Positions 320 to 63,096 of a DNA stretch of 64,000 bases are shown in pieces. A model generated the notes under the pieces. That model did not search any database. It saw only the letters and a list, made by a program, of their open reading frames with translations, and had not been told where the DNA came from. Source of the DNA: Lampris incognitus (taxonomy: Eukaryota > Chordata > Actinopteri > Lampriformes > Lampridae); contig NC_079224.1 of the NCBI RefSeq assembly GCF_029633865.1, positions 17,520,126 to 17,584,125 on the forward strand. The letters run 5' to 3'. A program made the translations under genes and the position numbers. The stretch's first letter is position 1. Each line of letters starts with the position of its first letter.

Positions 320-451
320 GCTATGACTGTTTCTAGAATCTGGGTGGATAAATTGCCGATGTGCAAACTGTTGGATTTGTTGCCCATCATATCGACCTGT
401 TGCACTGATTCATGTGTGATTTTTGTTCTCGTCCCCGGCCTCGCCTGACAG

Positions 452-18286
<17,835 letters not shown>

Positions 18287-19458: not shown

Positions 19459-20099
19459 TCCCCCCCCCTTTTTCTCCCCAATTGTATCCAGCCAATTATC
19501 CCATTCTTCCGAGCCGTCCCAGTCGCTGCTCCACCCCCTCTGCCGATCCGGGCAGGGCTGCAGACTACCACATGCCTCCTCCGATACATGTGGAGTCGCC
19601 AGCCGTTTCATTTCACCTGACAGTGAGGAGTTTCACCAGGGGGACGTAGCACATGGGAGGATCACACTATTCCCCCCAGTTCCCCCTCCCCCCTGAACAG
19701 GCTCTCCAACCAACCAGAGAAGGCGCCAGTGCAACGACCAGGACACATACCCGCATCCTGGGAGGGCTGCTGACTACCACATGCCTCCTCCGATACATGT
19801 GGAGTCGTCAGCCGCTGCGTTTCACCTGACAGTGAGGTGTTTCACCAGGGGGACGTAGCACATGGGAGGATCACACTATTCCCCCCAGTTCCCCCTCCCC
19901 CCTCAACAGGCTGTCCAATTGACCAGAGGAGGCGCCAGTGCAGCGATCAGGACACATATCCACATCCGGCTTCCCACCCGCAGATACGGACAATTGTGTC
20001 TGTAAGGACACCCGACAAAGCCGGAGGTAACGCGGGGATTTGAACCGGCGATCCCTGTGTTGGTAGGCAATGGGATAGACCGCTATGCTACCCGGATGA
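19459..20099 (-). mobile_element. tRNA-derived SINE family A with internal tandem duplication
   Basis: It is a family A copy in antisense. The segment from gggagggctgc through the CAG-to-cacataccc block occurs twice (about 19553-19753 and 19760-19967), so the element is ~200 bp too long. The tRNA head complement is at the right end (gtaggcaatgggatagaccg). Confidence 0.85.
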
Positions 20100-21870
20100 C
20101 CGACCTTTCAATTTCATATACAACTACAGTCATTTCGGCTGTTCAAAACCAACAAGGCAAAAAAACAAAACAGTGTTGTATGATTCTTTGTCAAAAGGTT
20201 CAGAACAGGTCAGTAGATGAATTCATTTGAGAGTATATTGGCTGATCAGATGGAGCATAGGAGATCAGGGAAGAAACAGGATAGGAGTATAGTTAACCAA
20301 TCAAATAAATTCTCATCGACATAAGTTTGCTGCATGTAAGCATCTACTGAATTACATGTCATGCATTGTACACATAATCCTTGTAATTCACTAAATGCAC
20401 TGTGCGACGGATGCGACATAATGAACAAGCCTCACTGCCAACTGTGCTGCTGTCGACTGTGCCTGTAATCTCCGCTATTGTAATGCTCAGCACACTGTGC
20501 CTATTGATGGGTTTTTTTTTGGTTTTTTTTGCAACTTCTCCCCCCATCCGATGTTGGATAATCAAAGGCAGGTGGTACTCTGTCAGCAGCAAAAGAACCA
20601 GGTCACTTCATATACTTGAAAATGGGCAGGAATGTTTTTATATGTTACTGTACAGGGTTGGCCAAAGAATATGCCTTATAGTGATGTTATTACACAGATG
20701 TCGCCGATCGCTCAAGTCACTCTTAATGGACCAATGAGAACGAAGAAACCAATTAGCCACGAGGGAAAGAAATATTGTTTGTCTGGGTCTGGCAAGAGGA
20801 AGATGAATTAATTGGACTACTGTGTGTTGTTTAAAGCATTGTTTACATTATTAATATATTATCACTGCTCTATAATACCTGAGGGTTAACAATATTTTTT
20901 AGTCTCGCGTAACTTTTACCCTTTTTTTTTTTTTTTTGGTCACTATGTTTTCTGCATTCTGTGTTTTGCGAAGGCAAGGAGAATCTACCTAGATGTGTTC
21001 TTACCGTGTGTTTGTATCCCTCACTGTTCATGTGTTAGATTTGTATTGAAAGTGAAAATCAGGTCTGTTAGGGGCTCTTATTTATTTGACAAGCATTTCG
21101 GGACTGATAATCATATCGAAGAGTAATATTTGACCACATGCTGAGCTTGCCTAAATCAAGGGGGTACATGTCCTCATCAAATCCATCCATGACGGCTTTG
21201 CACAAGACCCGAGTGAATGATTTAGACTTATATCTACTGAATGTTATTGCTACAGGGGGGGGTAGGAAATGTGAACTTGCACTATACAAATCGCCAGCAG
21301 CAAAAATATTTCCCTATTACATGAAATCAACATTGAGATCAAGCTCCCCAAATGCAAAGCTTACTCCATATGTTAAAAAAAAAAGACAAACCGTGGCGAT
21401 GTAACCCCGTCCCACTCATTGAAATCTAACAGCCTTAGTCGAGCGTGAAACTTAATATGCAACTTGCTTCTCACAATCTTCACTGAAGTGTCAACTGTTG
21501 TGCATTTTGGTAACAACCCTATCCTTGGCACCTGGGTGAGCTACCTCATGTTTACCATTGTGGTTGTGGGGCTGCGAACATATGACTCTGGAGCCATGCT
21601 TCTGTTGTTGGAAATTTATGAATGTAATAAATAAATAAAAAAGACACCGAGAATAATGAGGGTGTTAACGTGTTGCCTGTCCCTATCCAAACGCAACACC
21701 AAGACAATGACAGGTGGACTGCAAATACATAAATGCATGGATAGGACGCTGTACCGGCAGCGCTTGACGCCTTTAGGATTAAAAGTCCTCCATGCACACA
21801 TGCTTACTGGAACAATCTGTTCCTTGCAAACGATTTAGGCCCTCTGGCTTGTATTTTAGGAAAATCTCTC
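20100..21870. other. intergenic stretch without recognised features
   Basis: AT-rich DNA with homopolymer T runs (20511-20530, 20924-20938). Short ORFs show no domain. AATAAA-type words at 21626-21640 could be the greb1l poly(A) signal. Confidence 0.5.
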
Positions 21871-25282: not shown

Positions 25283-25412
25283 AGAACCTACTGTGGTGTT
25301 TGTCAGTCTTTTTTGAATTATCAATGGAAATCAAAATAAAGTTGTCCGTGACAGGTGGTGTTGGACAAAAACAACAAAAACTGTGGTCCAGGAACCCACA
25401 GAGACACAATAT

Positions 25413-25569
25413 TGTAACGAATTCGGGGGACAACGCAACCACAGGAACTGCCGCGGCCGGGAAGCGAACCCGTATCGCCCTCACCGCAGGAGGCATCGTT
25501 AACCGCTCAACTAAAGGGTTAGAACCTCGAGCCAGCGGCCAGCGTGTCTTCTTATCCATGCACGTTACA
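25413..25569 (-). mobile_element. solo LTR of a TRIM-like element (copy a)
   Basis: On the minus strand it starts TGTAACGTGCATGG and ends GAATTCGTTACA: 157 bp with TG..CA termini. It is flanked by atat on both sides (25409-25412, 25570-25573). The LTR contains a tRNA-like module with box A-like ttagttgagcgg and box B-like ggttcgcttcc. It is almost the same length and sequence as the LTR at 26503-26659. Confidence 0.8.
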
Positions 25570-25573
25570 ATAT

Positions 25574-25856
25574 CGTAGCGAATTTGCTGGGGGCGGGGGG
25601 CAGCCAGGAACCGCTGCAGCCGAGACGCGAACCCGTAACCAGTCAACTAAAGGGTCCGACCCGTTAGCTAACTGGCTAGAGAGTCTATTCATCCGTGATC
25701 GTTACACTACCCCCCTCCTTCGGGAAGCCAGCGTACCAGCTCCCTCACGCCTCTGGGCGCACGCGCTTCCGATGGCCTCACGGTCTCACCATCCCATTTC
25801 TGACACCAATGTAGTGAATTCGGGGGGAAGCCGGGACGTGAACCCGGGTCGCCCGT
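25574..25856 (-). mobile_element. TRIM-like element (copy b), one LTR intact, the other truncated
   Basis: Minus-strand copy. LTR 25574-25706 (133 bp). Then the complement of a polypurine tract, ctacccccctccttc, a short interior 25707-25809 (103 bp), the complement of the primer-binding site (tttctgacacca, 25798-25809), and a truncated second LTR starting at 25810. The right LTR switches into plus-strand LTR sequence at ~25857, so the end is rearranged. Confidence 0.75.
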
Positions 25857-26245
25857 TAGTCGACTGGTTAGCGCAGTCGCCCTGGGTGCGTGTAACGATC
25901 ACGGATTACTAGACTCGCTTTAGCTTTAGCTTACTGGTTAGCGCAGTTCGCGTCCCGGCTGCGGTGGTTCTCGGCTGCCCCTGAATTCGCTACATTGGTG
26001 TCAAAAATGGAATGGGGAGACCGTGAGGCCATCGGAAGCGCGTGCGCCCAGAGGCGCGAGGGAGCCGGTATGCTAAAGCGTGAGGACGCGCTTCCCGAAG
26101 GGGGGGGGGTAGTGTAACGACCACGGGTGACTAGACTCGGTAGCCCTTGGCTAACGGGTTGGACCCTTTAGTTGACCGGTTAGCGCAGTCGCCCGTGGTG
26201 CGAGTGACCGGGGTTCGCTTCCCGGCTGCCCCTGAGTTCGCTACA
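25857..26245 (+). mobile_element. TRIM-like element (copy c), two LTRs
   Basis: LTR 25891-25994 (104 bp, internally deleted), primer-binding site tggtgtcaaaaatgg starting at 25996, 118-bp interior, polypurine tract gaagggggggggggtag, then LTR 26113-26245 (133 bp, TGTAACG..CTACA). The 3' LTR holds tagttgaccgg (box A-like) and ggttcgcttcc (box B-like) about 40 bp apart. Positions 25857-25890 are an extra piece of LTR left by rearrangement. Confidence 0.78.
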
Positions 26246-26248
26246 TAT

Positions 26249-26659
26249 TGTAGCGAATTCGGGGGACAACGCAACCACAGGAACTGCCGCAGCCGGGAAG
26301 CGAAACCGTATCGCCCGCACCGCAGGAGACACCGCTAACCGCTCGACTAGTTCCTGTGGTCGCGTTGTCCCCCGAATTCGCTACATTGGTGTCAGAAGTG
26401 GGAGGGAGCGACCGTAAGGCCATCGGAAGCGTAGGCGCCCTGAGGCGTGAAGGAGCTGATATGCTTAAGCGCGGGGACGCGCTTCCCGAAGGAGGGGGGT
26501 AGTGTAACGTGCATGGATAAGTAGACACGCTGGCCGCTGGCTCGCGGGTCTGGCCCTTTAGTCGAGCGGTCAGCGATGTCTCCTGCGGTGCGGGCGATAC
26601 GGGTTCGCTTCCCGGCCGCGGCAGTTCCTGTGGTTGCGTTGTCCCCCGAATTTGCTACA
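26249..26659 (+). mobile_element. TRIM-like element (copy d), best-preserved interior
   Basis: 5' LTR 26249-26385, primer-binding site ttggtgtcagaagtggga (26386-26403), interior to 26502, polypurine tract gaaggaggggggtag, 3' LTR 26503-26659 (157 bp). The primer-binding site is complementary to the 3' end (with CCA) of vertebrate tRNA-Leu as I recall it. atat lies on both sides. The 5' LTR is itself a fold-back: its first ~37 bases are inverted relative to its last ~37. No gag or pol is present; the interior is only 117 bp. Confidence 0.82.
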
Positions 26660-26775
26660 ATATATAAGCAGCACACAATGAGGGTGGGATCGAGTGGGAG
26701 ACTAGCTTTCCTTAGCGACAAGAGTGCTGACCAAACTCAGCATCACCAAACAGAAAACAAGAGAAAAGGGACGTT

Positions 26776-27787: not shown

Positions 27788-28219
27788 CCCCCTTTTTCTC
27801 CCCAGTTGTATCTGGCCAATCACACCACTCTTCCGAGCCGTCCCGATCGCTGTTCACCCCCGCTACCGATCCGGGGAGGGCTGCTGACTACTACCACATG
27901 CTTCCTCCATCATGTGGAGTCGCCAGCCGCTTCTTTTCACCTGACAGTGAGGAGTTTCGCCAGGGGGACGTAGCACATGGGAGGATCACGCTATCCCCCC
28001 CAGTTCCCCCTCCCTCTGAATAGGTGCCCTGACCGACCAGAAGGTGGCGCCAGCACAGCAACTATGACAAATACCCAACATCCGGCTTCCCGCCCACAGA
28101 CATGGCCAATTGTGTCTGTAGGGATGCCCGATCAAGCCGGAGGTTACATTGCGGATTCGAACCGGCGAGCCCCGAGTTGGTAGGCAACGGAATAGACCCC
28201 TACATTACCCGGATGCCCC
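27788..28219 (-). mobile_element. tRNA-derived SINE family A, antisense
   Basis: Full-length layout; head complement gtaggcaacggaatagaccc and box B complement ggattcgaacc at the right end. Confidence 0.9.
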
Positions 28220-28975
28220 ACCGACAGGTTAAGACCCGGTAAGCAGATCCTGTGACATCAGGACAAAATAATTCCAACAGTGGACCATTCAACAATAAGG
28301 GCGTAATCTCATATATCTAATGAAATCAAATGCCTTGCATGAAGGACTAAGAGGCATGGTAGTATCCATTAAATAGTGCAATTTCACATTCCTTGTCATT
28401 AATTCAGTATTTTTCCATATCATACAATTGCAGAACTATTTGGTGTAAGTAAAGGTAGACGTGTGAATAAAAAGCACATGCGGAAGAATTCAAGGAAACC
28501 GACGGTCAACTGGAGAGTAACATCTACCTTTTACATGACAGAACAAATATATTAATGGAAAAAACAGGATAGACAGAACAAAAGGCTGTTGGAAGGAATC
28601 ATGAGTAAATAAAGAAAATCCCTGAGGGCTAAAACACTACTGATATCAGTTGTAAATGACGCTTGATGGCGAGAAATGGACGGATTCACTCATTTCATAC
28701 AGTACTGTTAACTTAAAAAAAAGTGTCATTGCACAAGGTAATTTCACAATCATTAGCTAGCTAACCCAACTAAACAAGATGAGCACATATTTTAGCTTTT
28801 CAACACTGACAAGAACAGCTATGCTCGCGTTTTCAATAAGCATACCATTGACTGCATGGCTACATACATTAAGAAGTTAAATGTATGAAGGATTAAATAA
28901 AAGGACATGAAATGTTGCACGAACAACTGTTTCCATCAACAAGGTGTGCCCTTCAAATGAGAAAGAATGTTTTCT
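28220..28975. other. unassigned DNA downstream of abhd3
   Basis: AT-rich with no recognised repeat or coding signal; likely abhd3 3'UTR or flank. Confidence 0.4.
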
Positions 28976-29412: not shown

Positions 29413-31072
29413 CTGCAGAAAACACACACACACATTCAGCTGCTGTCCTCCTGTTTGGAAACTCTTCACTATTACAGAAACATTTCTGTGCACAGCCGCC
29501 CCGGTCCAAATGACACCTATATATAATATGTGCTGATATACTCATAAGCAACTACTGGCAAAAACAATTGATTCAAAAAGATATTTGAAACTTTTTTTTT
29601 TTGGTAGGATTTCCCCCATTTTTCTCCCAATTGTACTTGGCCAATTACCCCACTCTCTGAGCCGTCCCGGTCGCTGCTCCACCCCCTCTGCCAATCCGGG
29701 GAGGGCTGCAGACTACCACACGACTCCTCCCATACATGTGAAGTCACCAGCCACTTCTCTTCACCTGACAGTGAGGAGTTTTGCCAGGGGGGACGTAGCG
29801 CGTGGGAGGATCACGCTATTTCCTCCAGTTCCCCCTCCCTCCCGAACAGGCACCCCGACGGACCAGAGGAGGCGCTAGTGCAGCGACCAGGACACATACC
29901 CACATCCGGCTTCCCACCCACAGCAAACATGGCAAATCGCGTCTGTAGGGACACCCGACCAAGCCGGAGGTAACACGGGGATTCGAACCGACGATCCCCA
30001 TGTTGGTAGGCAACGGAATAGACCACCCTGCCACCTGGATGCCCACATTTGAAACATTTTGATAAAAAGTAAAATCTGTTTGTGTTTTCTTTAGATGCAT
30101 TTTCTGGTCTTTTTTTTGTTTGTTTTTTTACAGAAAAGGCTGGATAGCAGAGCACACTTTTACAAGCTTAATGGATGTGTAATGGATGTGTAATGGATAT
30201 GTAAGAAGTCGGTAACGTTTTCCCCGGCAGCATTAAGCACATATTAAGTAACGGCTGTGGCAGGATCTCACCATGAGAGGGTGAGAAGACATCATCAGCA
30301 GCGTTCAGACACAGCATTGGCACCTGCACAGATTTCAGTCGGTGGATTGGGCTGGCATCGTGGTAGTAGTCATCGTTGGTGGGGTACCCAAACATTATGG
30401 AGGTGAACCTCTCATCAAACTCCCGGATCGTCTTCGCCTGAAAGGGGGGAGGTCGGTTAAAACAATGTAAGGCAAAGGGAAATCTGGGTTCAAATGGCAA
30501 TTATTAGCATGTCACAAATTGCCTCATTTTGTAACATTAGCCTACATGGACTGCCGAGCATAATCCTCACCTTCATGACGTGATCGATGTCATAGCTCTT
30601 TTCCAGCACTGGTCTGTGTCTGGTAGGGAGAGAAGAGATACAACTGTTACAAAATGCATGTCCGTACTTCTTGTGTTAAATGTACTCTGATAAAGTGTTG
30701 ACCATCCACAGCAACACAATATATTAATGATAATATCAGCCGTTTGTATGAGGTGCACAACAGTGCAGTCAATGTGCAGGTTTCATTAGCCATCCCTATA
30801 GTATGATGATGCACTTCTAAGGAAATATATGAATAAACATCTGTAAACAGTAAAATAAGGCAATTTTGAAGTAAAGTGCTACTGTGGTTTTTTTTTCTTT
30901 TCTGAAACGCTGTGACCTTTTTCCCCCATCTGGTGATGCTATAACTACACATTAGCGCAGCAATATTTTTGTCTGGTATGTCCAAGCCAACACTTTTATC
31001 AGCATATAAAAAAAGGGAAATCTGAGTGGTGGGAATTTATGCTGTAAAAAAAAAAAGAAAAAAAGACAGCAG

Positions 31073-34100: not shown

Positions 34101-37100
34101 CACTTATCCCAATCGGAGTCGCGGGATGATGGAGCCTATCCCAGCAGGCATTGGGTGGCAGGAGGGAAGACACTCTGGACAGGCCACCAGTCCAGCTCAG
34201 GGCCAAAACACACACACATATTCACACCTAGGGACAATTTAGGTCAGGTGACCTACATGTCTTTGGACTGTGGGAGGAAACCGGAACACCCGGAGGAAAC
34301 CCACGCAGACATGGGGAGAACATGCAAACTCCACACAGAGGACGACCTTGGATGACCCCCAAGGTTGGACAACCCCTGGGGTTCGAACCCAGGACTTTCT
34401 TGCTGTGAGGCGACCGCGCTACCCACTGCACCACCGTGCTGCCCCAGCTTTCTTCACCACCTACATAATCACAGGAGAATAAAACTCAGCACAACAGCAG
34501 GAAGACCAGACAAGTAAACGCATGCGGGACAGTGAGAGACTGGCCATAGCGCATGATACTCAGCATTGCATCCAATAAATAGATGCTCTACTTAAATAGT
34601 TTCTTTCTTGTTTTAAACAGAAAAGAAATGGAAGTGAAGGGTCTCTATGTTTAATATAGACAACACACGTCACTGCAGCATTGATGTCTGTTGTCAGCTT
34701 ATTTATTGAGAGGTGACACTTTCTACCAAAAATACTTCTGGCCAACTTCTGGCCAATATAATTGCACTTCCAAATCCTGATACTGGTTTTGGAAGTACTG
34801 GTCTCTTTCTGTGGGGGAAATAGGGGGAAATCCTTTCCAACTTGAAACAAAGTCTCAGGCAATGCAGGTTACTTAACATACACGACAAATCACCTCTTGC
34901 TTGGAGTAGGCCGTTTAGCAAGACCCATTTCTCAGGATGCCGTTAAGTCTCTTCAACCGCAGTCCTTCATTAAAATTCAAGCAGAAAACCTGTTTTCTGC
35001 ACTCCGGTTATGTTCTTCTCACAGCATGAAGACTTTGCAGTGACACTAACCATGGCACAAAATACATAAGCAAACCTACTGACAACTACTGAAGGCTATG
35101 AAATGATTTTAGGGAACACTGCTTCTTGCATTTAGACCTTTTGAGGAAAACTACAGAGCGAACAGTTAGGATGATATGGCCTGAATACAAATGCGAAGTG
35201 ACTCAAGCCAACAGTGCTGTACTGTAAAGATGTACTGTAACTGATATCAGTGAGCATCAGGGCTCCACCAGAAAGGTCTCCTAGGCAGAGGGCATCTCTC
35301 ACACAGCAAGCCATTCTAACGCACTGGCCTATTTAAACAATGAGGAGTATTCACACGAGCTGGCTGCAGAGAAAACACTCACGAAAGCGTATGCATGCTA
35401 AACCATTTGCATAAAATGTAGCTCAACTCCCTTGCTCAAGATAAAGAACAACATTTCTGCCTTGCTGCCATCACCGCCATGCCAAGGTTACAGAACTGAA
35501 AACTTTTTTTTTTTTTGAGCACAGATGAGCTCACTAAATCCTGGATATGACCTAGATTAGAAGTTGAAAATCAGAGTTAGCGAACTGGCTAACGTTTTCA
35601 ACATGCACCGGATTTTGCCCCTTTTTTTTTTCCAGAGCCTGTCTGTTTCTGAGCGGCAGGGAAGGGACCCCGCGTTACTAAGACAGTATAGCAGATCAGC
35701 TATTGAGGAAGAGGAGGAACATTGGGATGATTGTTGCTCAAACCCTGGCTGAAATAAAACACTGTTTGTCACTGAATGAGCTCTTGGTGTGACAGTGATG
35801 GTATGACCAGATCCTAATGATGCTGTAACATGGAAGGCGCATGCCTCCTTTCAGAAGGGCAGGCAGAGTTGATAGGACAATGGGCATACTATGCACAAGA
35901 GCTTAGACCCATTTTGTTGCCTAAATATAACTAGGAGAGGACAGATAAAGCCAGGTGTCAGCACTGCACGTGCCCAACAAGGTCATATTCCAGCGGATCG
36001 GCATTAAAATACATCTATCCACCTGCAATTTAATCCCTGCTATGTGACAACACTGTCTGCCTGTGCAGTGTCTGCTTTGGCCTCCTGTGGGATCAACATG
36101 ACACGTGTGCCACGGACATGCTTTGAGCTAGATGAAGCGCTAAAAAAGGACATCTATATACCAGAGAGCTGCCATACTGATGAAGGGGGTGAAATGCAGT
36201 TAGAGCTGGGCAATAATGAAATATTGTGGTTTATCGCCTCTCGACGGTATCGTATCAGAAGGAAACTCAGATATTGTGATAACATGATGCACAGTTCTGT
36301 GATCAGAATTATAGGTGATGGGAATTTCTTACCTAAAATTTCTCACAGTATGAGGTGTGAAATATTTGAGGGTGTATTGTTTGAAAACTAGTTTTGGTTG
36401 GATATTAGATTTTACATTACCAGTTAAATGTGATGAGCCTCAGTTGGTAAACTTGATATTATGGCATATGTACGCAGAAATTGTGATACATATCAATATT
36501 GTGTAATGTTCAGGATCACATTATTTTCTCCATATTGCCCAGCACCAAGCTTCTGTACGTAGCAGATCCATTGAACGCATTACGTTTCTTTCTTTCTTTC
36601 TTTCTCCCCCCCCCCTTTTTTGGCGTTTTCCCCTTTTTCCTCCCCAACTGTACTTCGCCAATTATCCCATTTTCCGAGCCGTCCCGGTTGCTGCTCCACC
36701 CCCTCTGCCGATCAGGGGAGGGCTGCAGACTACCACATGCCTCCTGGGATACATGTGGAGTCGCCAGCCGCTTCTTTTCACCTGACAGTGAGGAGTTTCA
36801 CCAGGGGGACATAGCGCGTGGGAGGATCACGCTAACCCCTCTCCCCCCCAAACAGTCGCCCCGACCGACCAGAGGAGGCGCTAGTGCAGCGACCAGCACA
36901 CACACCCACATCGGCAGCGTCCGAGTGATGTCACAGCATTGCTGTCGCTATGGACGCATCACAGGAAGTCAGACATGGGGAGCACGTTAGACAGTACAGC
37001 ATGGCTGTGTTTACAACTCAAGTATATGCTGCCATATATCCGATAATATTAAATTACGCAACAAAAATAAAAAACGAAGAAAATTACAACAAACTGCTTA

Positions 37101-43100: not shown

Positions 43101-46100
43101 GTATTTACCGACTCCAGCAGGAAACTGGGGAAGTGTACAGCCGCATATTTGTTAGTGTACTTTGTAACACACGTGCCTCAAACTTATTCGTTTTTAGCTG
43201 CATAGGCGCAATTTCACACTTGACCCGGGGACATCGTGCCCGCTTTCAAAACGAAATACCGTGGAGTTTAGGGCGAAATTGATATGCTGTAGCTGTTATT
43301 AGCGTGAGTGTGTCAGTCCCGGTGGTCTGAGTACTTACTTTCTGTAGCTGACCCCAGGTTTGGCTGTGACAAAGGGTCTCAGCAACGTCTGGATGCGACT
43401 CTCCCAGCACCAAAAAGTGGGGTAGTAAGTCTCTGATACCACCGGACATTGTTCCCTCAGAAACTGGTAGAATTTCTTACCCCCGGAGATGAGCTGAGGT
43501 TTCTGTTGACACAAAATTAACCAAGGTGTGTGACTGTTCTTAAAAATGATGCTTTCAAAAGAGAGACAGGTAAAAGGGGTAGTAAAACATATTGTAACGT
43601 GCATGGATAAGTAGACACGTTGGTCCTTAACTAACGGGTCGGACCCTTTAGTCGACTGGTTAACGTTGTCGCTTGCGGAGTGGGAGACCGGGTTCGCGTC
43701 CCGACAGTAGCGGTTCCCGGACTGCCCCCTAAATTCGCTACAAAATGTAACTGATGTGTTACTGCTTTTAAATTAAATGGTGGTTCCCTGGGGCTTTTAT
43801 GTCATCATGTCGAATTTGCTGATAATATCAAATTATCACCAATATCTCAGGGATAACAAAACACCATTTATTTACTATAAATTGTGGAACAAGGTTATCC
43901 AGAAGCCTAAATTAGTTTGTATTCTTGTATATGTAGAACTGTTTCAAAGATCCAGTATTTCAAAAAAGAAAAATAAACTCAACACATATGCTAAACATTT
44001 GACAAAAAGGAAACGGTACCATGTTGTTAAACGTAATAAAGAACTTGCCAATAACCAATTGTAATGGAAAGGAAGGTCCTCACAGGGAGTGAGCTGTAGC
44101 CTATTTAATGCACTGTCTCGGGGATAAATGAGCTCAGCAGAACACATCTGCAAGAACCTTCATCACTGGCTTTTTGCTGGGGCGTAATTTCCACTGGGGA
44201 TGGGGGGGCATGCCCCCCCTCTTTTCAAAATCCCATTTGTGTCGTCACCACTTTCAAAATCTTTTTATTATGTTTTTTAACTGTGCTTAATAAGCTACTT
44301 TTTGGCCAGTCGTCAGATTCTGGCTGAGAATGTGAACTGAGCTGCTGATTGTAAGGCCCTGATATGCTTGGAAAGTTTCCCAGGGAAGAGTAACGGACAC
44401 GGACAGCGTGCCTACGCGGGCGGTTCTGTGGTATATTTTGGCGTCTGTGGGCGCCGACGTGTTCCACGCATGCGCACTTGAAAAAATTTGCTCACTAGAT
44501 GAGCAAGCGGCAGTTCGTAAAAATGAAACGCCAGCAGCCCAGGGTAATCACATGTTCTGTCTAGACCTGTTGATGCTAGGCTAACATCGACTGAGGCAAC
44601 TCGTGCTAGGTCATGTTGTTGCTATTACTGACGTTGACTGGCGAGCGAAATGGTCACCAGCCCGTCACATATTTCCAAAGAGAGAAAAAAAAGCGATTTT
44701 GTCAAACTAAATATTTAAGGTGGTTTTAAAATAGCATGATTTTTCTATTAACCTGTGTAACTTGAAAACGAGTCCACCGGCTCAATAGTCTAACTCGACT
44801 CTGCTTTCATGAGGGTGGAGACAGGTAGGGCGAGGCAGGGAGAGTTGCAGGTAGGTTATATGTGTTATATAAAGGGTTAGGAGATGTTTGTTTGTTGATA
44901 ATGAGAGGGCCCTGTGAAGGCCTGGCGGCCTGCCCAGGGTGTCTCCCCGCCTGCCGCCCAATGACTGCTGGGATAGGCTCTAGCATCCCCGCGACCCTGA
45001 GAGCAGGATAAGTGGTTTAAATAATGGATGGATGGATGGATAATGAAAGGAAGGAGTGAACATGATAAGAAGCGAACAAGGTTGAATTAAAAATAAAGTA
45101 CGCTAATAATAATTATACTCTTCATAAGTATATAGCCATACGTAGCGAATTCGGGGGGGGGGGCAGCCCGGGAACCGCCACAGCCGGGACGCGAACCCGT
45201 ATCTTCCGCAACACGGGCGACTATGTTAACCAATCGACTAAAGGGTCGATTTGTGTTCGTTACATACCCCCGTCGTTCGGCGCATCAGCTCCCTCATGCC
45301 TCCGGGCGCACGCGCTTCCGATGGCCTCACCATCCTACTTCTGACACTGATGTAGTGAATTCGGGACGACAGCCCGGGAACCGCCGCAGCCGGGACGCGG
45401 ACCCGGATCTCTCGCTCCACGGGCGACAACGTCAACCAGTCGACTAAAGGGTCCAACTCGTTAGCCAAGGGCTACCGAGTCTAATCATTCGTCATTACAT
45501 ATATATGTATTATATAATTGAATAACTCATCATGTGAAGTTCAGTAAAGTTGTGGGTTAAACAATACAGAAAGTAAGGCAGCTTCGTCTTATGCATATTT
45601 AGTACTATTCTGGCAGAATTTAGCATGATGACCAACTTCAGTAAAGGTCTTCTTCTACTACTACTATTAATTTCATTATTTCCCAGATTTTATATTGGTT
45701 ACCATAGTCCCTAAATGCATGTAGAAATGCAGGAAATGGGATTCAAATCACTTTTTTTCTAGTGGAGGACCCCCAGACCCTCCGTTTTATTGTGCCCCCT
45801 ACCCCCACCCCCAGCGCAAAGTTGCGCGCTTGGCTTTCAGTATGAAACAAACTGATTGATTTAACAGTAAGCTTTACTAAGCACGGTGTGCAAGTTTAGA
45901 CAGAATACAATACATCCATCAGTCGTGGCATAAGAATTTAAGGATCAAAACTAATCGTATAATGTGGAGATGTGCCCAAAGCCACCCTCTGGGGGTGGGG
46001 GTTAAAGCTGACCTAACTGGCAATACAGCTTTCAGTTGCATTCTATTGTATTCTACTGTATTCTACTGTATTATGTTCTATTCTAATTAAGCTCCGTTAT

Positions 46101-48751: not shown

Positions 48752-62740
<13,989 letters not shown>

Positions 62741-63096
62741 GGCATGGTGGCGCAGTGGTTAACGTGGTTGCCTCACAGCAAGAAGGTCCTGGGTTCAAAC
62801 CCTGAGGTTGTCCAACGTTGAGGGTCTTCCCAGATCGTCCTCTGTGCGGAGTTTGCATGTTCTCCCAGTGTCTGCGTGGGTTTCCTCCGGGTGCTCCAGT
62901 TTCCTCCCACAGTCCAAAGACATGTAGGTCAGCTGAATCGGCCATACTAAATTGTCCCTAGGTGTGAATGTGTCAACCCTGTGATGGGCTGTCCAGGGTG
63001 TCTCCCCACCTGCCACCCAATGACTGCTGGGATAGGCTCCAGCATCCCGCGACCCTAGTTGGGATAAGTGACTTGGATAATGGATAGATGGATAGC
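62741..63096 (+). mobile_element. tRNA-derived SINE family B, full length
   Basis: Head ggcatggtggcgcagtggtt, box B gggttcaaaccc, body agtttgcatgttctcccagt, tail gggataggctccagcatccc and (ggat)n-like end. Sense to mib1, intron 3. Confidence 0.9.

Follow-up and report, generated by a model that had tools for sequence, protein, structure and literature searches.

A cluster of short repeats lying in both orientations occupies positions 25413-26659 of the window (the whole stretch of 64,000 nucleotides of DNA that was analysed) and raises the question of what kind of element built it, and of what the tRNA-like stretch in its repeats is for. The anatomy of the copies makes it very probable that they belong to a miniature LTR family of the Helenus kind, i.e., TRIMs whose LTRs contain tRNA-derived sequence (Kojima 2024, PMC10886601), moved by the LTR route. 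The original prediction placed the family at 25413..26659. The cluster is real, but blastn of the LTRs and interiors against the window revealed two further family sites, 43593-43742 and 45141-45499, and the family therefore goes on at 43.6 and 45.1 kb. Nor is the cluster the simple row of copies first described, since it includes inverted and fold-back units (Table 1).

Anatomy of the LTRs and interiors

An LTR profile mapped 12 pieces at E <1e-5 and yielded 3 further weak rows, antisense or overlapping, at E 0.0003-0.011; made from those same 12 pieces, it is a map and no independent test of the repeats. LTR lengths are 157 bp for S1 and for the 3' LTR of D, and 133, 104, 133, 150, 124 and 149 bp for the others, the longer LTRs being of 133-157 bp and the shortened ones of 104 bp and 124 bp, together with fragments. 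They start with TGTAACG (TGTAATG in one) and have TG..CA termini, replaced by ..CG in two LTRs. Interiors measure 103 bp (A1), 118 bp (A2), 117 bp (D) and 86 bp (F), and the two-LTR copies remain under 1000 bp, with 355 bp for A2, 359 bp for F and 411 bp for D. Direct repeats with TG..CA ends around a small interior had been foreseen and are indeed present, with LTRs of 104-157 bp and interiors of 86-118 bp. The same is true of the lack of coding capacity: three frames of 129-155 aa are open over the cluster by chance, and none of these three (at least 120 aa each) has a Pfam match.

Table 1. Positions of the family members and of their parts in the window.
Feature	Coordinates	Strand	Details
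S1, solo LTR with flanks	25409..25573	-	LTR 25413-25569, 157 bp
S1 flanks	25409-25412 and 25570-25573		ATAT and ATAT, exact 4-bp duplication
S1 boxes	box A 25503-25513, box B 25460-25470	-	
A1	25574..25855	-	3' LTR 25574-25706, truncated 5' LTR 25810-25855
A1 interior	25707-25809	-	PPT 25707-25721, PBS 25792-25808 (1 mismatch)
LTR fragment	25852..25889	+	begins 5 bp upstream of box A (25857-25867)
Joint of LTR fragment 25852..25889			about 4 bp common with inverted A1 LTR, read by eye
A2, two-LTR element	25891..26245	+	5' LTR 25891-25994 with internal deletions, 3' LTR 26113-26245
A2 interior	25995-26112	+	PBS 25996-26012 (3 mismatches), PPT 26097-26112
A2 3' LTR boxes	box A 26169-26179, box B 26212-26222	+	
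D fold-back unit, replacing the 5' LTR	26249..26385	.	37-bp inverted ends
D fold-back, left arm	26249-26349		inverted LTR positions 157-57
D fold-back, right arm	26349-26385		LTR positions 121-157, joint at first base of box A
D interior	26386..26502	+	PBS 26387-26403 (17/17 to tRNA-Leu(CAA)), PPT 26488-26502
D 3' LTR	26503-26659	+	box A 26559-26569, box B 26602-26612
D flanks	26660-26663		ATAT; matching ATAT 26245-26248
solo43, solo LTR 43593-43742	with flanks 43589..43746	+	flanks ATAT / AAAT, 3/4
solo43 boxes	box A 43649-43659, box B 43691-43701	+	
F, old two-LTR copy 45141-45499	with flanks 45137..45503	-	flanks CATA / TATA, 3/4
F LTRs	5' LTR 45351-45499, 3' LTR 45141-45264	-	
F interior	45265-45350	-	PBS 45333-45349 (3 mismatches), PPT worn

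The PBS starts one base past the LTR in all four interiors. Its match to the 3' end of tRNA-Leu(CAA) extends over 17 (A1), 15 (A2), 17 (D) and 15 (F) of 18 positions, those of D being consecutive, and this tRNA came top among 12 in every interior, with a runner-up of at most 12 of 18; ARAGORN called 11 of the 12 comparison tRNAs as intended. With up to 3 mismatches allowed, the 17-base TGGTGTCAGAAGTGGGA occurs at four window sites, all within these elements, against 0.34 expected, and none of 100 shuffles contains four such sites. At the other end of the interior, the purine tract gaaggaggggggtag abuts the 3' LTR, exact in two interiors, slightly changed in a third and worn in F. Both signals had been anticipated, and both were recovered: the tRNA-Leu PBS one base after the LTR in 4/4 interiors (15-17 of 18 positions) and the purine tract before the 3' LTR in 3/4.

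Likeness to the other three copies is 84-87% for the D interior but only 73-79% for the D LTR. The interior core may hold a packaging signal or a signal derived from a partner element.

Elsewhere in the window, pieces of a GREB1-like gene, a vertebrate gene, lie at 409-7133 and 14343-16068; four frames match cpSF2-GREB1 and two match TAGT, one of the latter below the Pfam cut-off. The host is most likely a ray-finned fish, and its repeat types suggest that it may fall outside Ostariophysi. Likely LINE remnants with zf-RVT matches just under the Pfam cut-off are found at 11830-12489 (+) and 54481-55278 (-), and a 209-bp unit is present in two tandem copies (91% matches) at 19546-19969.

The tRNA-like module and its possible role

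Every LTR piece that covers the region (10 of 12) has a box A-like TRGYNNANYGG at the expected place, a pattern drawn up after inspection of the copies. It begins with TAGTY in 9 of these pieces and TRGCY in one, and YGG is kept in all 10. Box B keeps its GGTTC in 7 of 10 covering pieces, and C stands at the canonical A position in all 10. Box A and box B had been expected in every well-preserved LTR, some 40 bp apart; the covering pieces show box A in 10/10 and GGTTC in 7/10, and the spacing is 42-43 bp in 5 LTRs.

The likeness of the LTRs to tRNA was scored as the best local score against 11 vertebrate tRNAs, all read as intended by ARAGORN; leaving out a tRNA-Arg sequence that ARAGORN read as another tRNA weakened the likeness of the A1 3' LTR, the A2 5' LTR and both F LTRs, for which it had been the best match. 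On the sense strand the score was matched by 1 (S1), 0 (A2 3' LTR), 0 (D 3' LTR) and 1 (solo43) of 1000 shuffles. The D fold-back (13), the F 5' LTR (21) and the F 3' LTR (34) exhibit a weaker likeness, while the A1 3' LTR (342) and the A2 5' LTR (241), both with deletions in the tRNA-like stretch, are at shuffle level. Among nine LTRs, the likeness is hence clear in four, weak in three and lacking in two. The corresponding antisense counts per 1000 shuffles are 42 (S1), 201 (A1 3' LTR), 51 (A2 5' LTR), 955 (A2 3' LTR), 435 (D fold-back), 57 (D 3' LTR), 932 (solo43), 923 (F 3' LTR) and 278 (F 5' LTR). Intact LTRs are tRNA-like in the same sense as their PBS and PPT.

Across the window, 32 of 2554 slices score at least 28 for tRNA likeness. 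Eleven of them lie on family LTRs in the sense direction and two are antisense at 26301-26500, where the reversed PBS is itself a tRNA-Leu end; the remaining 19 fall at seven other places, and several score above the LTRs. Six of these places were read by eye as tRNA-derived SINEs, the seventh being 19951-20150. By eye, 34250-34500 (-), 62650-62900 (+) and 49350-49600 (+) form one SINE family with the head GGTGGCGCAGTGG..GGTCCTGGGTTC, and 29850-30100 (-), 28050-28250 (-) and 10150-10350 (-) another tRNA-like one, which has CGGTTCGAATCC and a common tail.

tRNA detection, proposed along with the original prediction, came out negative, with no tRNA called by ARAGORN across the window. Rfam gave no match at gathering scores, and its tRNA model is unmatched even at E 10 in 25350-26750 and 43500-45600. 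At E <=10, five other matches appear in the first of these regions and one in the second, all far below gathering scores; the best, MIR1437 (E 1.7e-05, 42.5 bits vs a gathering score of 168), falls on the hairpin 26249-26385, and all are attributed to chance or to this hairpin. What stands of the tRNA-like promoter that had been put forward is a sense-strand tRNA-like stretch in intact LTRs, but not an Rfam tRNA match. The conservation of box A and box B (0.895) exceeds that of the rest of the LTR (0.838) by a borderline amount, since 7% of random window pairs (1266 of 17263) reach the same level, or 6% (947 of 16817) when the six long LTRs alone are considered. TTTT is absent from the sense strand of all 12 LTR pieces and of six out of six units, as it is from 137-298 of 500 shuffles.

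We consider it fairly probable that the tRNA-like stretch of the LTR serves as an internal Pol III promoter. An ordinary Pol II TRIM, whose LTR merely retains a decayed tRNA or SINE insertion with no promoter role, competes with this step only. The unmatched Rfam tRNA model, the C for canonical A in 10/10 boxes B and the borderline conservation of the boxes are all in its favour; yet the tRNA-like stretch is sense-oriented and can be made out in the intact LTRs of either subfamily (e.g., the 3' LTRs of A2 and D, 75% alike), and neither TATAAA nor AATAAA occurs on the sense strand of the 12 LTR pieces, and we hold a Pol II origin of the transcript to be unlikely. It is extremely improbable that tRNA-derived SINEs, in tandem or inverted, make up the units in place of LTR elements. 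The tRNA-like stretch, the inverted arrangement within the cluster and the apparent ordinary tRNA-derived SINEs of the window would suit such an origin, but the PBS-interior-PPT order is constant in all four units (PPT worn in one), the ends are TG..CA and a solo LTR carries an exact duplication. The TRIM-like anatomy originally proposed is upheld by this same order, by the TG..CA ends and by the exact duplications.

For a Helenus-kind TRIM with a Pol III step, the tRNA-like stretch of the LTR would derive from a tRNA or a tRNA-derived SINE, and the internal promoter would probably start the RNA near box A of the 5' LTR. tRNA-Leu would then prime first-strand DNA at the PBS and the purine tract would prime the second strand, while an autonomous Gypsy element may supply the reverse transcriptase and the integrase, the latter two leading to 4-bp duplications and a liking for ATAT. 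A scan of 40 of the window's 46 frames of at least 120 aa gave no match to a reverse transcriptase core, integrase or gag. Three exact patterns had no match in viral contigs, nor one in bacterial and archaeal genomes, collections in which few would be expected.

Target sites, fold-back units and cluster history

Exact 4-bp ATAT duplications flank two of the five insertions (S1 and D), and three of four bases agree in solo43 and in F; the A insertion matches at one of four bases unless one terminal base is shared. At the spacing of S1, a 4/4 match is found at 0.56% of positions, and at 8.7% (61/699) of those with all-A/T flanks; at that of D, the values are 0.51% and 7.0% (42/602). Each exact duplication alone is consequently modest evidence, because chance would give it at about 0.5%, or 7-9% with all-A/T flanks. 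ATAT is present at 308 of the 64000 window positions and stands directly before the element at two of three separate places (the cluster and solo43), a pattern suggestive of a preferred target.

The LTRs of S1 and D are 92% alike (145/157), and the D fold-back is the same as D's own LTR at 96 of 101 positions. LTR pairs within an element agree at 86 of 101 (A2) and 96 of 115 positions (F), i.e., they are 15-17% different. On the simplest reading, A1 and A2 would be the older pair, inserted into an ATAT site, with S1 and D added later at the flanking copies of ATAT. Against this putative order of insertions, the right border of A fits only with one terminal base shared with the ATAT of D.

Both fold-back joints were located by eye. 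In D, inverted LTR positions 157-57 are joined to 121-157, position 57 being the first base of box A. The joint in A links an inverted LTR end to LTR sequence that starts at about position 52, 5 bp ahead of box A. As there are only two joints, their closeness to box A carries little weight. Such units were reasonably likely made after integration, when head-to-head insertions would have lost the LTR 5' portions lying between them by deletion. Opposite-strand neighbours are present in the cluster (S1 and A1 vs A2 and D), and about one deletion for each unit would be enough. D, however, terminates in an LTR 3' end on either side and is bordered by ATAT left and right, as expected for entry as one molecule, and neither joint is more than about 5 bp away from box A, a weak argument with two cases.

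On another reading, units A and D would be aberrant reverse transcription products, in which the growing minus strand jumped to the 3' end of another strong-stop cDNA: the latter would be copied to the primer end, so that the molecule ended in an LTR 3' end on either side, and integrase could still insert the product. We regard such strand jumping as quite improbable and favour the deletion reading. If strand jumping were nevertheless true, the joints would record the RNA 5' end at box A and so preserve a trace of a Pol III-type start in the genome, and the fold-backs of the family could serve to map TRIMp3 start sites. Fold-back units offer a testable idea on the RNA start of such elements.

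Relation to Helenus and other known elements

Helenus elements have been listed in six animal phyla, with PBS and PPT, 4-bp duplications and Gypsy-like PBS regions in animals, and tRNA-His, -Leu and -Lys as primers in vertebrates (PMC10886601). Zebrafish LTR-11_DR, with 5575 LTRs, 2618 interiors and tandem arrays, is one of the fish families (PMC10886601). The present family shares with Helenus, especially with such fish families, the short LTRs with tRNA-derived sequence and the tiny non-coding interior, as well as PBS and PPT, 4-bp animal duplications, a Leu primer, solo LTRs and arrays; the likeness to LTR-11_DR is by description, not by sequence. Most Helenus families have box A TRGCY..YGG and GGTTC in box B (PMC10886601), whereas 9 of 10 pieces here have TAGTY in box A. 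Fold-back units seem to be undescribed for Helenus, 'inverted' and 'palindrom' being absent from the main text of PMC10886601. A 2026 meeting report counts Helenus and Ajax among newly discovered elements using small RNA-derived sequences (PMC12859917). Among the matches listed in a search of the open-licence literature, no further paper describes tRNA-like LTRs in fish by title or summary.

Plant Cassandra likewise bears a stretch derived from a Pol III gene in its TRIM LTR, but this is a 5S rRNA promoter, unlike the tRNA-like module of the present animal family; the comparison of Cassandra with Helenus was already made by Kojima 2024 (PMC10886601). The animal counterpart of Cassandra that had been predicted does have a tRNA-like module in a TRIM LTR, but its kind already bears the name Helenus (PMC10886601). 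tRNA-derived SINEs (SINE2) also possess a tRNA-like promoter module, yet they are without LTR, PBS and PPT and are moved by LINEs. The LTRs of Steamer, a Gypsy element of bivalves, start with TGTAACA, and its PBS is TGGTGTCAGAAG (PMC8905726). Steamer and related Gypsy elements share the LTR start TGTAAC and the tRNA-Leu PBS TGGTGTCAGAAG with the family described here, which fits a Gypsy partner, although Steamer is autonomous, coding and almost only found in bivalves (PMC8905726). A Steamer-related Gypsy is a possible kind of partner and not the element itself.

The window copies are a fresh set of elements of the Helenus kind, described in 2024, and add to it insertions of differing age and, at a single location, an ATAT site that seems to have been hit more than once. 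The fish groups in Table 1 of Kojima are coelacanth, sturgeon and paddlefish, and three ostariophysan orders (PMC10886601); if the host lies outside them, the known range of Helenus widens.
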